A stretch of DNA of 64,000 nt, from positions 1 through 64,000 of the forward strand of contig NZ_LMUY01000070.1 in the NCBI RefSeq assembly GCF_009765685.1, in the 5' to 3' direction. Within the stretch, counting starts at the first letter, position 1, and each line of letters starts with the position of its first letter. The notes below the pieces were generated by a model. It was not told the DNA's origin. It saw only the letters and a list, made by a program, of their open reading frames with translations, and made no database searches. Source of the DNA: Acidisphaera sp. L21 (lineage in GTDB: Bacteria > Pseudomonadota > Alphaproteobacteria > Acetobacterales > Acetobacteraceae). This document shows, in pieces, positions 482 through 35,782 of this stretch. The position numbers were made by a program, and so were the translations under genes.

Positions 482-1834
482 CTAGGCAGCTCCTCGTTTC
501 ACGAATTGTCCGGTGCCGGGCTTGGCCAGCACGTTGGTTCCATCCCACACCACTTTCCCACGCAAGATTGTGGCGGCGACACGGGCGCAGATGGCGCGGC
601 CCTGGTACGGGGACCAGCGGAGTTCCGGTCGGTCCTGGATCTCCGCCTCCTCGAAGGTGAATTGGCCGGGCTGCATAACCACGAAATCCGCGTCCTTGCC
701 GATCGAAATGGCGCCCTTGCGGCCGTCCAGCCCGTGATGTTGCGCTGGGCGTTCGGCGCAGTAGGTGGCCATCAGGGTCAAGGGCAGGCCGCGTTCTTCC
801 AGCAGGGTGAACATCAACGGGGCGAAACTCTGCAGCCCCGTCAACCCGGCGCCGCATGCGAAGATGTCGGCGAAGTCCTTACGGTCCACCGGCCAGGGCG
901 CGTGGTCGGTGGAGATGTAGCCCACCTTCCCCGCCACTAGCGCCTCCCACATCCGCTCCACCTCGGCCGCGGTGCGGAAGGGCGGGTTGCATTTGCCGCG
1001 GCCGCCGAGGCGCACCAGGTCCTCCTCGGTCATGCAGAGGTATTGGATGCACGCCTCGCCGGTGGCCTTCGCCCCCATGGCGCGGAAGGACTCGGCGATG
1101 GTGAAGCCGCGCGCGACGGAGGAATGGGCGATGTGGACGTGGGCGCCGGTTTCCAGCCCGATCTCGAAGATCTCGTTATCCGCCATCGTCTCCGCCAAGG
1201 GCGGGCGGGTGCGGCAATGCATGATGGCGTCCGTCTGCCCAGCAGCCCGGGCCTCTGCGGTCAGCCGCTCCACCAACTCCTGGTCCTCGTTATGGATGGA
1301 AACGGGGATGCCGGTGGTGGCAATCGCGGCGAAGGCTTCCACCATGGTGGGGTGGTCGATGCGGGGGAAGCGCACGGCGTCGTATTCGTAGGTGGACAGC
1401 TTGAACGAGCAGACGCCGCCCTGGGCAAGGCCCGGGATTTCACCGACGCCGCCCTGCTTCGTGATGGTGCCGTACAGGCCCATGTCGACATGGGCGGTGC
1501 GGTTCACCCAGCCGATCTTGTCGGCCAGGATGTCGGCGTTGGTGACAGCACGCGGCACGTCGTAGGGCATGTCGACGCAGGTGGTGACGCCACCCGCCGC
1601 GGCGGACCGGGTCGCGTTCTCGATCCCGGACCAGCCGAGCGACGAACTGGTGTGCATATGGCCGTCGACCAGGCCGGGGAAGACGCAATTCTCGCCATAA
1701 TCCAGCACCCGCGCCGCATTGGGCGCCGGCCCCGTGCCGATGGCGGCGATGCGCTCGCCATCGATGGCGATCCAGCCATTTTTCGTGATGTCACCCGACG
1801 TCACGATCGTGCCGCGGACCAGACTGTCGTGCAT
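482..1834 (-). CDS. Dihydropyrimidinase/allantoinase-like amidohydrolase (D-hydantoinase family)
   Basis: A cyclic-amidohydrolase family enzyme of 450 residues that opens hydantoin, dihydropyrimidine or allantoin rings. The binuclear metal site looks complete: HMH at residues 59-61, a carbamylatable Lys in CSFKLS, His in SIHNED, His in HIAHSS, and Asp in STDHAPW. The segment around TRSAAAGGVTT resembles allantoinases more than classical D-hydantoinases, so the substrate is not settled. I chose the ATG at 1834 because AAGGAGAG lies just upstream; an in-frame ATG at 1882 would add 16 residues that fall inside a hairpin. The next gene is an N-carbamoyl amino-acid hydrolase one base downstream, which favours a hydantoin-to-amino-acid route. 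The ribosome binding site sits in the arm of a long stem-loop (see 1838-1891). Confidence 0.88.
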   Translation of the reverse strand: MHDSLVRGTIVTSGDITKNGWIAIDGERIAAIGTGPAPNAARVLDYGENCVFPGLVDGHMHTSSSLGWSGIENATRSAAAGGVTTCVDMPYDVPRAVTNADILADKIGWVNRTAHVDMGLYGTITKQGGVGEIPGLAQGGVCSFKLSTYEYDAVRFPRIDHPTMVEAFAAIATTGIPVSIHNEDQELVERLTAEARAAGQTDAIMHCRTRPPLAETMADNEIFEIGLETGAHVHIAHSSVARGFTIAESFRAMGAKATGEACIQYLCMTEEDLVRLGGRGKCNPPFRTAAEVERMWEALVAGKVGYISTDHAPWPVDRKDFADIFACGAGLTGLQSFAPLMFTLLEERGLPLTLMATYCAERPAQHHGLDGRKGAISIGKDADFVVMQPGQFTFEEAEIQDRPELRWSPYQGRAICARVAATILRGKVVWDGTNVLAKPGTGQFVKRGAA

Positions 1835-1837
1835 GGG

Positions 1838-1891
1838 CTCTCCTTCGTTGCCCATCGTAAGCCCCCGAGGGAGGCTGGGCAACGAGGAGAG
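1838..1891 (-). promoter_or_regulatory. Long mRNA hairpin that buries the hydantoinase ribosome binding site
   Basis: On the minus strand, the 16-base arm CTCTCCTCGTTGCCCA (1876-1891) pairs with the downstream arm TGGGCAACGAAGGAGAG (1838-1854), with a single bulged A. The downstream arm contains the whole AAGGAGAG Shine-Dalgarno sequence of the gene starting at 1834. The loop can form a further short stem (AGCCTCCC with GGGGGCT). There is no U-tract, so this is not a standard terminator for the tad operon, which ends at 1900. Translational control is an inference from the geometry. Confidence 0.6.
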
Positions 1892-1899
1892 GGCTTTGG

Positions 1900-2664
1900 C
1901 TAGGGAGCCGGCGCGGCGACCGGGCCGGTGCTGGTGTTCAGCGCGGCATAGCCGGCCATGGCGATCGGCATTTGTTCCGGTGACAGATCCGGCTTCAGCA
2001 GCGAGGCAGCGCCGGCCTGGTCACCCGACATAGCCAATGCGGTGGCCAGGTCGTGGCGCACGCGCCGCGGGGCGCTGGGGCTCGCTGCGAGGGGCCGCAG
2101 CACCTCCACGCCCTGTGCCGCATTGCCACCAAGTGCCATCGACAGTCCGAGGTTGACGCGGGCTGCATCCAGTTCCGGCGATTCTTCCAAGGCCTTCTGA
2201 TACGCCACCTGCGCCTCGGAATGCTTCTCCTGCATATCCAGCGAGATGCCGAGATTGGTGAGCGCGCGGGGATCGCGGGGCGAACTGGCCAGCACGCGCC
2301 GGAACGCTGCCTCCGCATCTGGGGCGCGGCCGCTGAGCAGGAGCACCCGGCCGAGACCGAATTGCGCCCCGGTGGAGGAGGATGACACGCGCAGGGCCCG
2401 GCGGAAGCTGCCCTCCGCCTGCGCCATCTCACCCATCTCGGTCAGCGCCTGGCCCTCGATGAGCAAGGCGCCCAGATCATCACGGTTGATGGCAAGCTGG
2501 CGACGGGCAACGGACAACGCGGCCTCTGGCGCGCCACCGGCCAGGGCGGCGGCGCCGACCTGCAGGCTGGGCGGCCTGTTGACGAATGATTTGGTCGACC
2601 CGGCGCAGCCGTTGAGCAGCATGGCCGAGGGTAGCAGCAAGGCAAGAAGCGGAAGCGCACGCAT
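1900..2664 (-). CDS. tadD: TadD-type TPR lipoprotein of the Flp pilus locus
   Basis: A secreted lipoprotein of 254 residues with tandem tetratricopeptide repeats. The N-terminus has a hydrophobic stretch ending in the lipobox LNGC (residues 17-20). TPR-like helices follow from about residue 45 to 220, for example around ALTEMGEMAQAEGSFRRAL and ALTNLGISLDMQEKHSEAQVAYQKAL. TadD proteins are thought to help assemble or localise the secretin and other Tad components at the outer membrane. I chose the ATG at 2664 because GGAG lies nine bases upstream; an ATG at 2679 is also possible. It is the last gene of the tad operon, 20 bases after tadC. Confidence 0.88.
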   Translation of the reverse strand: MRALPLLALLLPSAMLLNGCAGSTKSFVNRPPSLQVGAAALAGGAPEAALSVARRQLAINRDDLGALLIEGQALTEMGEMAQAEGSFRRALRVSSSSTGAQFGLGRVLLLSGRAPDAEAAFRRVLASSPRDPRALTNLGISLDMQEKHSEAQVAYQKALEESPELDAARVNLGLSMALGGNAAQGVEVLRPLAASPSAPRRVRHDLATALAMSGDQAGAASLLKPDLSPEQMPIAMAGYAALNTSTGPVAAPAP

Positions 2665-2684
2665 TTTGCGAAACTCCATTGAAC

Positions 2685-3620
2685 CTAGTGACCGTGCAGC
2701 GACGCCATGACCTTCAGCGCCGCCGGACCACCCACCACTGCAAATACCGTCGGAAGTATGAACACAATCATAGGAACGGTGAGCAAAACCGGCAGACGGG
2801 CCGCTCTTTCTTCGAAACGAGTCAGCGCCTCGGTCCGCATTTCGGAGGACAGGGTGCGCAGCGCCTGCGAGAGTGGCGTGCCGTATTGCATGGTCTGCAC
2901 CAACGTGGCGCCCAGCCGCTTCAGGCTGTCCAGCCCGGTGCGGTTGCCCATGTTCTGCAGTGCCACGCGACGGTCCGAGATGATGCGCAGCTCGCTTGCA
3001 GTCTGCCGCATCTCCTCCGCGACCGCGGGGTGGGCGTGACCGATCTCCGCGGCGACGCGGGTGATGGCGGGTTCCAGGCCCAGGCCTGCCTCGGAACAAA
3101 TCACCATCATGTCCAGCGCGTCGGGCAGGCCGCGATCCAGCTTTTGCAAAAAGCTCTTGCGCATGGACTTCACGATATAGTCGGGTGCGAGCAGGCCGAG
3201 GATGGCTGCAACGCCGGTGCCGCCGTTATGCGTCACCGTTGAAAAGTGCATATAGCCCAGTCCGAACCAGGCCATGACCGGGAACCCCACCAGCATCAGC
3301 AACTTGCTGCCGACGAACAGGCCCAGACCGTTGCCACCGCGGAACCCCGCGGCCATCAACGTCTGCTCCAACTCGGTGACCGTCTTGTCCGACAGGAGGC
3401 CGCTGCGCGCGAGCGCCGTGCCGATCATCGCGATATAGCGAAAGGGGCCGCCATTGCCGGCTGCGCGGGGCCGGGTGGAGCGCGCCATGCCGGCCGCAAG
3501 CTGCATCTGTGCCACGCGATTGGCCATCTTCTCCTGCGCCTCGACCGCACGGAGCAGCAGCAGTGCTCCCAGGCCGCAGAGCAGTGATACGCCGCCCGCA
3601 GCCATCATCAGTGGCGTCAT
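2685..3620 (-). CDS. tadC: Tad inner-membrane platform protein TadC
   Basis: A type II secretion F-family (GspF/PilC-like) inner-membrane protein of 311 residues. There are hydrophobic segments near the N-terminus (about 5-25), around 110-150, and at the C-terminus (about 285-305). The conserved cytoplasmic F domain includes ALDMMVICSEAGLGLEPAI. TadB and TadC together form the membrane platform on which the TadA motor acts to extrude Flp pilin. Its start overlaps the tadB stop by four bases (ATGA), indicating translational coupling. Confidence 0.94.
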   Translation of the reverse strand: MTPLMMAAGGVSLLCGLGALLLLRAVEAQEKMANRVAQMQLAAGMARSTRPRAAGNGGPFRYIAMIGTALARSGLLSDKTVTELEQTLMAAGFRGGNGLGLFVGSKLLMLVGFPVMAWFGLGYMHFSTVTHNGGTGVAAILGLLAPDYIVKSMRKSFLQKLDRGLPDALDMMVICSEAGLGLEPAITRVAAEIGHAHPAVAEEMRQTASELRIISDRRVALQNMGNRTGLDSLKRLGATLVQTMQYGTPLSQALRTLSSEMRTEALTRFEERAARLPVLLTVPMIVFILPTVFAVVGGPAALKVMASLHGH

Positions 3621-4573
3621 GACAGGCTCTTTCGGATCATGTAGCGCATCGTCACCATTCCAAGTCCTAGCCAGAGTACTGCGCAGCCGAACAATGTCTG
3701 CCCCGGCCCCTCGCGCATCAATTCCCCAATGTAGTCCGGGTTGAGCACGGCGAGCGCACCGGCGGCGAAGACCGGAAGCACGGTCAACACCGCGGCACTG
3801 GTTCGCGCCTCGGACGCAAGGGCGTAACCGCGGGATTTCAGTGCCACGCGCTTGCGCACCACATCGGCCAGATTCTCCAACGTCTCCGTCAACCCGCCGC
3901 CAGTCTGGCTCTGCAGCGCAAGGGCGGTGGCGAAGAAGCGATATTCCGGCAGCCGGTTGCGCGCGGCCATCTCCCGCAGCGCGTCCTCGATTGGCGTGCC
4001 GATGCTAACCTGGTCGTAAAGACGTCCGAATTCGACTGATGTCGGCGCCTCCGCATCCTGCGCCACCGCGCGCAATGCCTCGGACACGGGGATACCGACC
4101 CGCACGCCGCGGACGATCGTCGCAAGCGCATCCGGGAATTGGCGATAGAGCGTGGCGGCCCGCTTGTTATCGTTGCCTTTATAGACCGACCGCGTGACCA
4201 GTAGCGCGACCACCGGGACCAGCAGCCAGGACAGCGGCCCCAATAGGCCGTGCAGCAGCCATTGGACGGCCCAGCCAGGAATGACCGAGACTGGCATGAC
4301 CAGGATAGGCTTCAGCGGATATGGGTCCCGCCGGATGGGGTCCATGCCGATGAAGCTTTTGACGCTTCGCAGGAGCGAGGCGGTTGGCAGGGCGACGGAC
4401 AGGCGAGCGATGCCGACCGCGGCCTCCTGACTCGGCTGGTAGGGCGTGACGATTTTGACCCGACGCTCGCGCAACTGCCGGGCGCGTTGGTCGGCATACA
4501 GCACCAGCACCCCGGCGGTGGAGAAGCCGACGAGCACGACACTCGCGATCATCAGCAGGCTTGTCATATTCAT
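3617..4573 (-). CDS. tadB: Tad inner-membrane platform protein TadB
   Basis: The second F-family platform protein (318 residues), paralogous to TadC. It has an N-terminal membrane segment (about 5-27), a pair of central hydrophobic segments (about 105-140) and two C-terminal segments (about 260-310). The F domain contains FPDALATIVRGVRVGIPVSEAL and the conserved QTGGGLTETLENLADVVRKR region. It follows cpaF/tadA by 26 bases and overlaps tadC by four. Together these fit the canonical tadA-tadB-tadC order. Confidence 0.94.
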   Translation of the reverse strand: MNMTSLLMIASVVLVGFSTAGVLVLYADQRARQLRERRVKIVTPYQPSQEAAVGIARLSVALPTASLLRSVKSFIGMDPIRRDPYPLKPILVMPVSVIPGWAVQWLLHGLLGPLSWLLVPVVALLVTRSVYKGNDNKRAATLYRQFPDALATIVRGVRVGIPVSEALRAVAQDAEAPTSVEFGRLYDQVSIGTPIEDALREMAARNRLPEYRFFATALALQSQTGGGLTETLENLADVVRKRVALKSRGYALASEARTSAAVLTVLPVFAAGALAVLNPDYIGELMREGPGQTLFGCAVLWLGLGMVTMRYMIRKSLS

Positions 4574-4599
4574 CGCAACCTCCCGATCTTAGGCCTGTC

Positions 4600-5970
4600 C
4601 TACGACCGGCCAGCCTCTTCCAACGACGACGCCCATACCTTATCGAGGCCGAAATAGGCGAGCCGTTCGTTGAATGACGGGCGCGCGCGGCTGACGCGGT
4701 AGACGCCCTGCAGGCGGCCGTCTTGCCCCTCGCCCGTCATCTCGAAGGCAAAGATGTCGTTCAGGATCACCACGTCACCCTCCAGCCCGCAGACTTCCGT
4801 CACCTGGATCAAACGGCGGCCGCCGTCGCGCTGGCGTTCCACCTGCACGATGATGTCCACGGCACCGACGATCTGTTGCCGGATCGACTTCGAGGGCAGA
4901 CCGAAATTGCCCATCTGCACCATGTTCTCGATACGCGTGATGGCGTCGCGGGCGGTGTTGGCGTGGATGGTCGACATGCTGCCGTCATGGCCGGTGTTCA
5001 TGGCCTGCAACATGTCGAACGCCTCGCCGCCACGAACCTCGCCGACGATGATGCGGTCGGGGCGCATACGCAGGGCGTTTCGCACCAGATCGCGCTGCGT
5101 GATCTCGCCCCTGCCCTCCAGCGATGGCGGCCGCGTTTCCATGCGCACCACGTGCGGCTGCTGCAACTGCAATTCCGCCGCGTCTTCGACTGTGATCACA
5201 CGCTCGGAGGCGTCGATCAACTGGCTGACGGCGTTGAGCAAGGTGGTCTTGCCGGAGCCGGTGCCGCCACTGATGATGATGTTCAACCGGCAGCGGCCAG
5301 CGATTTCCAGAATGCGCGCCACCGGTGCCGTCATCGAGCCGTATTCGACCAACCGGGCGAAGTCGATCCGCTTCTTACTGAACTTCCGGATGGAGATGTA
5401 GGGGCCGTCCAGCGCCAACGGCGGGAACACGATGTTGACGCGGCTGCCGTCCTTGAGGCGGGCATCCGCCATCGGGCTGCTTTCGTCCACGCGCCGGCCG
5501 ACATCGGCAGCGATACGCTGGCAGATATTGGCGACGTGCGAGGCGTCGCGGAACTTCACGTTCGACAGATACACGCGGCCGGCGCGTTCGACGAAGACCT
5601 TGTCCGGGCCGTTGACCATGATGTCGGCCACGGTCTCGTCTTCCAGCAACGGCTCCAGCGGGCCCAGACCGAGCATGTCGTTAACCAACTCGGCCGCGAG
5701 TTGGCGCTGTTCGCGTCCGTTGAGCTGGATACGTTTATCGGTCGCGATGTCGGCCAACAACCGCTCCACCTCGATGGCGAGGCGGTCGGAGGCCATGCCG
5801 GCGATGGAGACCGGGTCCAGCCGGGTGAGGCAGAGCTGGCGCAGTTCCGCCAACGGTGCGGCGGCCCGAACGCCGGGTGTGGCCTCGACCACGACGGGGG
5901 TCGCGGCGATCGGCGCTGGCGGCAGGTCTGCCGCGGTGCGGCGGCCGAATGCGCTCACCGGCGAGACCAA
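4600..5970 (-). CDS. cpaF: Flp pilus assembly secretion ATPase CpaF/TadA
   Basis: The cytoplasmic hexameric ATPase that powers Flp pilus assembly. Over about 456 residues it shows the CpaF N-terminal region, then the ATPase core: Walker A GGTGSGKTT at about 235-243, an Asp-box region, and the Walker B region RIIVGEVRGGEAFDML near 310, followed by NTGHDGSMSTIHANT. The 5' end is uncertain. A TTG at 5970 has AAGAGGA upstream, while a GTG at 5958 overlaps the tadZ stop as GTGA, the overlap style used elsewhere in this operon. Either start leaves the whole catalytic domain intact. Confidence 0.94.
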   Translation of the reverse strand: MVSPVSAFGRRTAADLPPAPIAATPVVVEATPGVRAAAPLAELRQLCLTRLDPVSIAGMASDRLAIEVERLLADIATDKRIQLNGREQRQLAAELVNDMLGLGPLEPLLEDETVADIMVNGPDKVFVERAGRVYLSNVKFRDASHVANICQRIAADVGRRVDESSPMADARLKDGSRVNIVFPPLALDGPYISIRKFSKKRIDFARLVEYGSMTAPVARILEIAGRCRLNIIISGGTGSGKTTLLNAVSQLIDASERVITVEDAAELQLQQPHVVRMETRPPSLEGRGEITQRDLVRNALRMRPDRIIVGEVRGGEAFDMLQAMNTGHDGSMSTIHANTARDAITRIENMVQMGNFGLPSKSIRQQIVGAVDIIVQVERQRDGGRRLIQVTEVCGLEGDVVILNDIFAFEMTGEGQDGRLQGVYRVSRARPSFNERLAYFGLDKVWASSLEEAGRS

Positions 5971-7175
5971 GGCATGCGCCGCGTCCTCTTCATCGGCGCA
6001 ACGGTCGGCGCGAACGCCACCTCCTTTGCCAGATCGAAGATACCGGTGCGGAAGCCGCTACGCTGCTTGACGGCTGGCTCACCCATATTTTCCGCCGCCC
6101 CCAGCACACGCGGAAGATCGGGGATCGTGACATCGACGGTCATGCGCATGGCTTCCTCCACCTGGCGCTTTGTGAGGCCGCCGGGCATCCCGTTGCGGTT
6201 CAGCACCAGCACGGCACGCCGGGCCTGTGCCGTGCCGGACGGCAGGGCGAGCATGCGCAAGGCGTCGCGAACATTGGCCAGCGTCGGCAGCATCACCAGG
6301 ACGCGCTGCTGCGTCAGGTCCAGCAGGTCGCGTGACAGCAGGCTGCTGCCGAACGGCACATCGGCGACTACGAAGTTGAACCGGCGGCGCATCAGTGCCG
6401 CCAACCGCTCCGCCGCGCCTGGGGCGCAACCGGGCTGTTCCGACAGGGCTTCCTCGCCGGCCATGATGTGCAGGCGGTCGCCAAGGGGCATGGCGGCGCG
6501 TTCGACGAACAGTTCGTCCACCCGGCCGGGCTGTTCCAATGCGGAGCGTAGGCCTGGGCCCGATTGCGCGCCCAGCAGCATGGCGGCCGTGCCGGTCTGC
6601 AGGTTGGCATCCAGCAATGCCGTGTGGCGGCGGCCGATATCGGCCAGGTGCCAGGCCAGGTTTGCCGCGATCGTTGTGGCGCCTGCCCCGCCGCGCACGC
6701 CGGTCACCGTGACCATGCGGCCGCCGAGCGCGGCATTGGATGGCGCCTGATGCGTGATCTGGGCGCCGAAATGGCGGGCGACCATTTCCGACACCAGCGG
6801 CTTGTAGAGATACTCGGTGGCACCGAGCGTGCGGGTGACCTGGCGATAGAATGCCACGTCCTGCCGCTCGCCCACGATCATCACCTGCACATCCGGCTCC
6901 AGCACGTGGCTGAGGTCGGCGAGCAGGCCGAGCGGCTGTGATTCCCCGGTGATATCGATCACCAGGGAGCGCGGGGTGGACATCTGCGCCAGTGCCGTCA
7001 GCGCAGTACGAACGTTGCCGCGGCGGATTTCGAACCCGGCCGGCAGCGCCTGCGTCAAGCCTTCCCGCAGAACCGTCTCGCTGTCGCTGTCGGCAATGAA
7101 GGCGAGAAAGGGCATCCGGTCGGAACGCGACGTCGCTTCCGGCGGAGTCGGCGTAAGCGTTGTACCACCATCCAT
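5955..7175 (-). CDS. cpaE: Pilus localisation ATPase-like protein CpaE/TadZ
   Basis: A 406-residue protein of the CpaE/TadZ family. An N-terminal receiver-like domain (about residues 20-135, beginning PFLAFIADSD) is followed by a ParA/MinD-like domain whose deviant Walker A is GVRGGAGATTIAANL. TadZ proteins mark the cell pole and recruit the Tad machinery. The start at 7175 overlaps the cpaD stop by one base (TAATG). Upstream in-frame codons exist but would lie inside cpaD and cpaC and are not credible. The downstream end overlaps the start of cpaF. Confidence 0.93.
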   Translation of the reverse strand: MDGGTTLTPTPPEATSRSDRMPFLAFIADSDSETVLREGLTQALPAGFEIRRGNVRTALTALAQMSTPRSLVIDITGESQPLGLLADLSHVLEPDVQVMIVGERQDVAFYRQVTRTLGATEYLYKPLVSEMVARHFGAQITHQAPSNAALGGRMVTVTGVRGGAGATTIAANLAWHLADIGRRHTALLDANLQTGTAAMLLGAQSGPGLRSALEQPGRVDELFVERAAMPLGDRLHIMAGEEALSEQPGCAPGAAERLAALMRRRFNFVVADVPFGSSLLSRDLLDLTQQRVLVMLPTLANVRDALRMLALPSGTAQARRAVLVLNRNGMPGGLTKRQVEEAMRMTVDVTIPDLPRVLGAAENMGEPAVKQRSGFRTGIFDLAKEVAFAPTVAPMKRTRRMPWSRR

Positions 7176-15645: not shown

Positions 15646-16272
15646 ATGCTTCGGATCTGGGGCCGCGCCAACTCGGTGAACGTGCAGAAGGTTTTATGGT
15701 GCTGTGAGGAGTTGGGCCTGCCGTTCGAACGCATCGATGCCGGCATGCAGTATGGGCGCAACCAGGATGACGACTATCTGGCAATGAACCCAAATGGCCG
15801 CGTGCCCACGATCGAGGATGATGGTTTCCGGCTGTGGGAGAGCAACTCGATCATCCGCTACCTTGCCCTGCAATACGCGCCAGCGCACCCGATCTACCCG
15901 GCGGCCCCGCGCGAACGGGCAGGAATGGAGCGGTGGCTGGACTGGGTGCTAACGACGCTGCAGCCCGCCGAACGGCCAGTGTTCTGGGGCTACGTGCGCA
16001 CCGATCCGGCCGACCGCAACGCAGCCGCCCTGGCCGATGCTACGGAGAAGGCCGGGATGCTGTGGGCGTTGCTGGACCGGCATCTGCAGGGGCGACGCTA
16101 TTTGGAAGCGGAGTGCTTCACCTTGGCCGATCTGGTGATGGCCACCTATGCCAGGCGGTGGTTCGGCATTCCCGAGATCGTACGGCCTGCGATGCCGGAT
16201 CTGGAGCGCTGGTATGCAGCGATGCAGTCTCGTCCAGGCTTCCAGAAAGTCGTGGCGCCGCCGCTGAGCTAA
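15646..16272 (+). CDS. Glutathione S-transferase family protein
   Basis: A soluble 208-residue GST. The N-terminal thioredoxin-fold domain begins LRIWGRANSVNVQKVLWCCEE; the Ser/Asn in RANSVNV is in the usual catalytic position. The glutathione-binding segment NGRVPTIEDDGFRLWESNSI follows at about residues 50-70. The C-terminal helical domain contains YLEAECFTLADLVMATY. The substrate is unknown. Its TAA overlaps the TAG of the convergent thiL gene. Confidence 0.93.
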   Translation: MLRIWGRANSVNVQKVLWCCEELGLPFERIDAGMQYGRNQDDDYLAMNPNGRVPTIEDDGFRLWESNSIIRYLALQYAPAHPIYPAAPRERAGMERWLDWVLTTLQPAERPVFWGYVRTDPADRNAAALADATEKAGMLWALLDRHLQGRRYLEAECFTLADLVMATYARRWFGIPEIVRPAMPDLERWYAAMQSRPGFQKVVAPPLS

Positions 16273-34155: not shown

Positions 34156-35782
34156 GCCAATGCTCCGCCCAAAGCGTGGTTGGCTGGTTGTGGCCGGTCG
34201 GGACCACGCCCTTCAGCCAGGTCGGCCAGACATGCGCCTCCGACCCGAAGAACAGCGGCAGCACCGGCAGTTCGTCGGCGTAGATGCGCTGCATGTCGGC
34301 CCAAAGCGGAATGCGCTTGGCCGGTTCCAACTCCCGCTCCATTGCGTCGATGTCGGCATCCATTTTCGGGTTGCGGAAGTCGGTGTAGTTGGTGCCGCCC
34401 CAATTATTCGCCGCGGTCGGGATCTGGCCGCTGGACAGAGTCTGCCGCGGGGAGCTTTCGACCGAACTCAGCCAGCCGAACATCGCCATGCCCTGGAAGC
34501 TACGGTGCTTCAGCGTTTCGCCGAACAGGGTGCGGGGCGGCTCGTTCTTGATGATCGTCTCCACGCCGATGGTGCGCCACTGGCTTTGCATCACCTGCTG
34601 AAGCAACTCCCGTGCTCGAACGCCGGTGCTGGTGCTGAACACGATGCTCAGCCGTTGCCCGGCGGCGTTGCGCAGAACGCCATCATCGCCGGGCTTCCAC
34701 CCGGCCTCTGCCAACAAGGCGCGGGCTGCGGCGGGGTCGTATTGATAGGTGCGCACGTCGCCGGTGTATTGCGGCTCCTGCGGGTTGACGAAGCTATTGG
34801 CGATGGGAACGCGGCCGCCCATCAGCCGGTCCACCATGCTCCGCCGATCGATGGCCATCAGCAGCGCCCGGCGCACCCGGATATCGGCCAGGATCGGGTT
34901 GTCCAATTGCAGGTCGATATGGGTGTAGGCCAGGTTCGGTTTGTAGGCGTAGGCGAAGCGCGTGGGCTCCTGCTTTTGCAGCACCAGCACCTGGTCCAGC
35001 GTCAGCCCCACGCCCTCACCGGGCACCATGTCGACATCGCCGGATTGTAGGTTCGCCTGCAGGGCGGCGGTGTTGGCGATGGCCTTGATGACGATGCGGT
35101 CGAAATAGGGGCGGTCGCCGGACCAATGCTCGTTCCGCTCCAGCACGAGTTGACCTCCCTGCTGCACGTTGGCGATGCGGTAAGGGCCGTTGTACAGCCC
35201 GGGATTGGTCGGCTCGCGATTATAGATGCTGCGCTGCATGTAGTCGCCGGGGTTGCGGGCGGCGTCGAATACCGGCTGCTCCAGATGGGCGGGCAGCAGT
35301 TCGGCCAGTTCGTCGAACTGATAGAATGGCTCGGTGTAATGCAGCACGGCGGTTTGCGGGTCCACGACGTCGACCCGGCTGATCCGCGTCCAGGTCTGCG
35401 TGTTGGTGAAGCCGCTATTCGGGTCGCGACCTACGCGGGCGGTGAACGCCAGATCGGCCGCACCCAACGGCGCGCCGTCACCCCAGGTGAGCCCGGGCTT
35501 GAAATGCCAGGTGACGGCCATCCCCGTGCCCTCCATCACCGCACCGCCGTTGGCGATGCTGGGGATTTCGGTGCACAGCAGGCAGACCAGCTTGCGGTCC
35601 GGATCGAACGCGACCACCGGGCGATCGGCGAAGCCCAGTATGTAAAATTTGATCGCGTCCGGATCGATCGCCGGCTGTAACGTCGATGGGTAGGAGGAGA
35701 CGCCGATCGTCAGCGTCTTATGCGGTTGCGCTGCGACCGCGCCGCACAGCAGCGCCAGCCACAGCGCAACCGCACGGATCAA
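34148..35782 (-). CDS. Periplasmic peptide-type binding protein (second of two)
   Basis: A family-5 extracellular solute-binding protein (544 residues) with a signal peptide ending near AVAAQPHK. Family features include the opening TLTIGVSSYPSTLQPAID, the lobe motif PGLYNGPYRI, and the C-terminal LPVLPLFFGSEAHVW. It starts with a TTG that overlaps the stop of the upstream paralogue by four bases (TTGA). Both paralogues carry a CLLCTE motif (here Cys67 and Cys70), which is not a general feature of family-5 binding proteins. Ligand unknown. Confidence 0.92.
   Translation of the reverse strand: MIRAVALWLALLCGAVAAQPHKTLTIGVSSYPSTLQPAIDPDAIKFYILGFADRPVVAFDPDRKLVCLLCTEIPSIANGGAVMEGTGMAVTWHFKPGLTWGDGAPLGAADLAFTARVGRDPNSGFTNTQTWTRISRVDVVDPQTAVLHYTEPFYQFDELAELLPAHLEQPVFDAARNPGDYMQRSIYNREPTNPGLYNGPYRIANVQQGGQLVLERNEHWSGDRPYFDRIVIKAIANTAALQANLQSGDVDMVPGEGVGLTLDQVLVLQKQEPTRFAYAYKPNLAYTHIDLQLDNPILADIRVRRALLMAIDRRSMVDRLMGGRVPIANSFVNPQEPQYTGDVRTYQYDPAAARALLAEAGWKPGDDGVLRNAAGQRLSIVFSTSTGVRARELLQQVMQSQWRTIGVETIIKNEPPRTLFGETLKHRSFQGMAMFGWLSSVESSPRQTLSSGQIPTAANNWGGTNYTDFRNPKMDADIDAMERELEPAKRIPLWADMQRIYADELPVLPLFFGSEAHVWPTWLKGVVPTGHNQPTTLWAEHWHE

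Follow-up and report, generated by a model that had tools for sequence, protein, structure and literature searches.

Why should the ribosome binding site of a hydantoinase-like gene lie inside a hairpin at the very end of an unrelated gene cluster? We addressed this question by computation in a window of 64,000 nt of Acidisphaera sp. L21 DNA, i.e., the whole stretch of DNA analysed, to which all coordinates refer unless stated otherwise. On the minus strand, the gap between the tadD stop codon (1902-1900) and the amidohydrolase ATG (1834-1832) is 65 nt long and is nearly filled by one hairpin. The genes on its two sides are as follows.

Positions 482 to 1834, minus strand: hydantoinase-like amidohydrolase of 450 amino acids; nearest family ErtD (hydantoin-5-propionate amidohydrolase)
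Positions 1900 to 2685, minus strand: tadD-like TPR lipoprotein, the final gene of the tad (pilus) cluster; stop at 1902-1900
Positions 2685 to 7115, minus strand: co-directional tad genes upstream, namely tadC and tadB (T2SSF), cpaF/tadA (T2SSE) and a cpaE-like gene

ErtD is the best named family for the amidohydrolase, with a score of 509 bits that lies below the curated cut-off of 600. Such a below-cut-off match does not fix the exact substrate; hydantoin, allantoin or uracil as ligands are thus a guess. The start at 1834 is supported by two orthologues (L032 and L033, 80% identity), in both of which a TGA stands in frame two codons ahead of the aligned ATG. After a third orthologue (L034:2970-8262) we noted two nitrilase/carbamoylase-like genes and, further on and on the other strand, racemase-like and acetolactate-synthase-like genes, all functions being judged by eye; this neighbourhood suggests a cluster for hydantoin or N-carbamoyl degradation. 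In the window, the first nitrilase/carbamoylase-like gene is cut by the edge (1-480).

The hairpin is made up of the following parts.

Positions 1838 to 1891, minus strand: hairpin of 16 Watson-Crick base pairs with a single bulged A; its loop contains an inner stem
Positions 1876 to 1891, minus strand: upstream (5') arm CUCUCCUCGUUGCCCA, whose outer six bases CUCUCC cover the Shine-Dalgarno (SD) site
Positions 1838 to 1854, minus strand: downstream (3') arm UGGGCAACGAAGGAGAG, with the SD within it
Positions 1840 to 1845, minus strand: SD site AAGGAG of the hydantoinase-like gene

Folding with RNAfold bore out the near-perfect 16-bp inverted repeat, with its bulged A and inner loop stem, that had been described in a first-pass annotation of this DNA. 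CUCUCCU CGUUGCCCA (1891-1876) pairs with UGGGCAACG (A) AGGAGAG (1854-1838), the bulged A is one of the two As at 1845/1844, and the inner stem of the loop contains one G-U pair. The same annotation had placed the entire SD of the 1834 start in the downstream arm, and this was found to be correct, the SD core AGGAG (1844-1840) being paired throughout. The region 1800-1920 folds with -56.6 kcal/mol compared to a shuffle mean of -44.0 kcal/mol (z -3.8; 0 of 200 shuffles as stable), and the hairpin by itself (1893-1836) with -36.7 kcal/mol.

To place these values, hairpins of 16 or more Watson-Crick pairs, with no more than one defect and a loop no longer than 40, were counted in a genome sample of 426 kb (the window plus 362 kb from elsewhere in the genome). 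A single one was found, at this gap. Order-2 Markov DNA yielded 0.93 such stems per Mb (37 in 40 Mb), which gives a chance expectation of ~0.06 per 64-kb window and ~6e-5 per 65-nt gap. By energy alone the fold is strong, not unique, ranking about 20th among non-overlapping 62-nt stretches on both strands of this 66% G+C window. More informative is the energy needed to open the SD, which amounts to 12.2 kcal/mol in a read-through transcript and ranks second among 216 genes of this genome with an SD of at least 4 nt (median 3.4). The most locked SD-like site of these 216 genes belongs to positions 15675-16272 of the window, plus strand (GGGG, 12.4 kcal/mol), where the SD is weak and the gene call automatic. 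The strongest local fold of the window lies at 35716-35777 on the minus strand (-49.8 kcal/mol) and contains a perfect 13-bp inverted repeat (35721-35733 / 35762-35774).

The locking of the SD depends on where the transcript begins. The opening cost of 12.2 kcal/mol in the read-through transcript compares with 1.7 kcal/mol in a transcript from a candidate start within the gap, the largest such difference among 46 orthologue leaders; for the AGGAG core alone, the values are 10.6 kcal/mol in the long transcript versus 0.1-0.4 kcal/mol in the short one. Computed transcripts starting at 1880 or later have an open SD, and one starting at 1890 has it locked, as the pairing partners of the SD are the six outermost bases of the upstream arm. 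The candidate start belongs to a putative promoter within the hairpin.

Positions 1877 to 1882, minus strand: candidate -35 element TTGCCC, inside the 5' arm, at a position matching TTGCCG of orthologue L172
Positions 1854 to 1859, minus strand: candidate -10 element TACGAT, 17 nt after the -35 element and 25 nt ahead of the ATG; it lies largely in the loop, with its last base in the 3' arm
Positions 1846 to 1848, minus strand: expected transcription start from this promoter, inferred at ~7 nt after the -10 element

In the fold predicted for a transcript starting at this promoter, the 5' arm is absent and the SD is free. The candidate, TTGCCC-N17-TACGAT, matches 8 of 12 consensus positions and was not reported by a standard promoter scan. 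Sites as good occur at 0.087 per kb of strand, so that ~0.006 would be expected in the gap, and gene upstream regions of this genome show a 6-fold enrichment of TTG-N16-18-TAnnnT. It should be noted that an in-frame ATG, missed by the first-pass annotation as was the promoter-like site, lies at 1853-1855 within the downstream arm and overlaps the candidate -10 element. The long form that would begin there (MGNEGEPMHDS..., from the ATG at 1855) could come from read-through RNA only. As an alternative start this ATG was ruled out by the in-frame stop just ahead of the aligned 1834 ATG in L032 and L033.

The promoter type was also computed for the relatives. Among the orthologues, TTG stands exactly 17 nt ahead of TA[AG][CT][CGT]T in 25 cases; no other spacing between 8 and 30 gave more than 2. 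Examples are TTCACA-N17-TAACGT in L032, TTCACG-N17-TAACCT in L034 and TTGCCG-N18-TATCCT in L172, whose -10 elements begin 31, 28 and 27 nt before the ATG, respectively; the candidate in the window has nearly the same placement and spacing (-10 element at -25). From these sequences, the orthologues generally carry a predicted promoter of their own, of a lax alphaproteobacterial type, just upstream. In Gluconobacter oxydans, a member of the same family, the promoters of the most abundant transcripts have a -35 element ttGnnn and a -10 element Tatnnn (PMC5756330).

We propose, with a probability of roughly 0.5, that the hairpin may serve as a translational insulator at the operon boundary, for a hydantoinase-like gene with its own candidate promoter inside the inverted repeat. 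The upstream unit is co-directional and has no intrinsic terminator. Polymerases running out of the tad genes would produce a long mRNA carrying both arms; the hairpin would then form in this mRNA and bury the SD, and no amidohydrolase would be translated from tad messages. The gene's own promoter would have both its -35 and -10 elements inside the inverted repeat, and its transcripts, starting at ~1847, would contain the downstream arm only, leaving the SD open and the gene readable. We infer that the candidate promoter would be in use, that read-through would occur and that translation would differ between the two transcripts. Protection from tad read-through had already been mentioned in the first-pass annotation, beside a translational switch (riboswitch, thermometer or protein-controlled leader). 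The former role fits the evidence best, and the riboswitch and thermometer readings fit it badly.

A regulated switch would open the SD on a signal, be it a ligand, a temperature shift or a bound protein, and a stem containing the SD is the normal output part of such switches. As a thermometer, the lock would lose only ~2 kcal/mol between 30 and 45 °C (SD opening of 11.6 and 9.4 kcal/mol, respectively) and at 55 °C would still demand 8.0 kcal/mol; such a stem would not melt at temperatures compatible with life. As a riboswitch, it would have little room for an aptamer in a gap of 65 nt; no Rfam family matched above chance, the lone hit being a microRNA family with an E of 0.42, far below the cut-off. 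Moreover, no comparable leader structure is conserved upstream of 79 orthologues, one clade of which was tested for covariation, and the stem sequence is absent from 396 other Acetobacteraceae genomes. A protein could still melt or bind the stem; taken together, a switch of any of these kinds appears highly improbable.

The strongest rival to insulation is a hairpin that chiefly forms the 3' end of the tad mRNA, acting as a terminator without a U-tract or as a barrier to 3' exonucleases, and covers the SD merely because the gap is 65 nt long. The 5' arm begins 9 nt past the tadD stop, the usual place for such hairpins, and any large hairpin in a gap of this size must touch the SD. On the other hand, the SD lies entirely in the 3' arm, which stops 3 nt short of the ATG, and neither a terminator-like T-run nor a terminator-like site was found at the hairpin, which thus lacks the U-tract of an intrinsic terminator, an absence that the first-pass annotation had rightly remarked upon. 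The tadD homologues point both ways: hairpins of different sequence come after a few of them elsewhere (e.g., L137), but most have no comparable hairpin there. We consider this explanation rather unlikely. A conserved tadD-end hairpin was rejected as a candidate, given that tadD homologues (41-50% identity) precede other genes, or unrelated hairpins, or none. Likewise, a multi-copy element was ruled out: the stem sequence occurs as a single copy in the genome and so is not a repeated palindromic (REP-like) element.

A further point counts against the insulator, since on the computed model its lock could be partly opened by a ribosome ending at the tadD stop. This leads to the alternative of translational coupling, in which the hairpin is invaded from its base by ribosomes completing tadD; the SD would thereby be exposed, and the amidohydrolase would be translated only in step with tadD. 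If the terminating ribosome is taken to cover 12-15 nt past the stop, the computed opening cost of 10.2 kcal/mol drops to 3.0-0.1 kcal/mol, since the bases that pair with the SD are the outermost ones of the arm; with 9-10 nt covered, it is still 8.9 kcal/mol. From the usual toeprint distance, 9-10 nt past the stop are expected to be covered. Furthermore, the tad and hydantoinase functions are unrelated, and no orthologue was found adjoining tadD. Coupling seems improbable to us, and insulation is retained as the preferred reading.

The conservation of this arrangement was followed among the relatives. The nearest orthologues (L032, L033 and L034, 79-80% identity) have a different upstream gene, which in L034 is an alpha/beta hydrolase as judged by eye, and are without a comparable lock; the MAFFT alignment of the window gap with L032-L034 was too weak to rely on. 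Little or no SD locking was computed for L032, L034 and L172. We found no relative with tadD next to this gene: among the family matches listed, none spans both genes and, in the closest ones (L169-L171), homology to the hydantoinase-like gene starts at the ATG.

The orthologue leaders were further analysed for complementarity around the promoter, using the 49 with a recognisable promoter, window included; this analysis was made post hoc and its statistics ignore phylogeny. The two flanks of the -10 element complement each other better than they complement the flanks of other species (permutation p 0.0004, 49 leaders; p 0.006 when permuted within groups), and the signal is best when the pivot is left unshifted. 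This signal comes mainly from leaders whose upstream gene is co-directional (mean z -0.82, n=20) compared to divergent ones (+0.26, n=28; Mann-Whitney p 0.003), with p 0.005 without the window and p 0.017 against divergent short leaders. For SD locking itself, the difference between co-directional and divergent leaders was not significant (p 0.09). The same SD locking by unrelated stems was computed for L086 and L094, both co-directional, with a gain of 9.0 kcal/mol each. The association with orientation is a lead rather than a result, and terminator-like hairpins of the upstream genes could also cause it.

These leaders bear on the possibility that the inverted repeat has no selected function and is inert or recent, for example a copy of the SD region made by a template-switch mutation, with the gene's own promoter simply driving its expression. 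Such an origin would suit arms that are perfect, have no relative by sequence among the 396 family genomes and are not conserved even in orthologues of 80% identity. Against it stand the chance expectation of ~6e-5 for this gap, the greater frequency of inverted repeats around the promoter where read-through is possible, and the unrelated stems of L086 and L094. We regard an inert repeat as about as improbable as coupling.

If real, the insulator would be an example at an ordinary operon boundary of a G+C-rich alphaproteobacterium, and would suggest that neighbouring units can be insulated at the level of translation where an intrinsic terminator is absent. The known hairpins that hide ribosome binding sites (RBS) in read-through transcripts are mostly those of phages, mobile elements and sporulation genes. 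With IS10 transposase (fold-back inhibition), the RBS is hidden in read-through transcripts coming from outside but not in those of the internal promoter; the gene concerned there belongs to a mobile element, and here it is an ordinary metabolic gene. For sigG of B. subtilis, with the spoIIG operon upstream, a large hairpin (20+ bp) has been proposed to hide the RBS in read-through transcripts, and it cannot form in transcripts from sigG's own promoter (PMC5942855). Common to both cases is a large hairpin at an operon boundary that would hide the RBS; in the present gene, a transcript from the candidate promoter is predicted to lack it. The cases differ in phylum and gene, in that the sigG promoter and transcript start were mapped and both are predicted here, and in that no further SD hairpin is predicted in the short transcript of the present gene.

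The mechanism is established for gene e (lysozyme) and I-TevI of phage T4, where the SD is locked in long early transcripts, and a promoter lying close ahead of the RBS yields transcripts that miss the 5' part of the structure and get translated; for gene e the measured effect is ~100-fold (PMC3014915, PMC2988022). As there, the SD lies in the 3' arm of the hairpin of the long transcript and is free in the predicted own-promoter transcript, but the purpose in T4 is the timing of late genes during infection, whereas the present case concerns an enzyme gene on a bacterial chromosome. Insulation at this junction would be of a known kind, here in an unusual place.

The layout of a promoter inside a hairpin is simple enough for a systematic search, and the idea can be tested through its predicted link to gene orientation. 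In five ertD leaders (L086, L094, L080, L066 and L110), we observed the -10 element in the loop of an inverted repeat, with unrelated sequences, an arrangement commoner where the upstream gene is co-directional. It is conceivable, albeit doubtful, that in Acetobacteraceae the ertD-like promoter, where a co-directional gene precedes it, repeatedly gains an inverted repeat enclosing its -10 element; the promoter would then double as a read-through insulator, re-evolved with unrelated stems.

Finally, a different element was seen in leaders with a divergent neighbour. L038 (3033-3063) and 13 other ertD leaders of this kind share a gap-free TTC(C/G)TA followed 20 nt later by CAAG; in these divergent Acetobacteraceae leaders both motifs are invariant, at fixed spacing, between the promoter and the start. 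A conserved RNA hairpin after this CTTCSTA block was considered and failed the covariation test. Since no covariation was detected, the TTC(C/G)TA/CAAG block is probably the DNA site of a regulator and not an RNA element.
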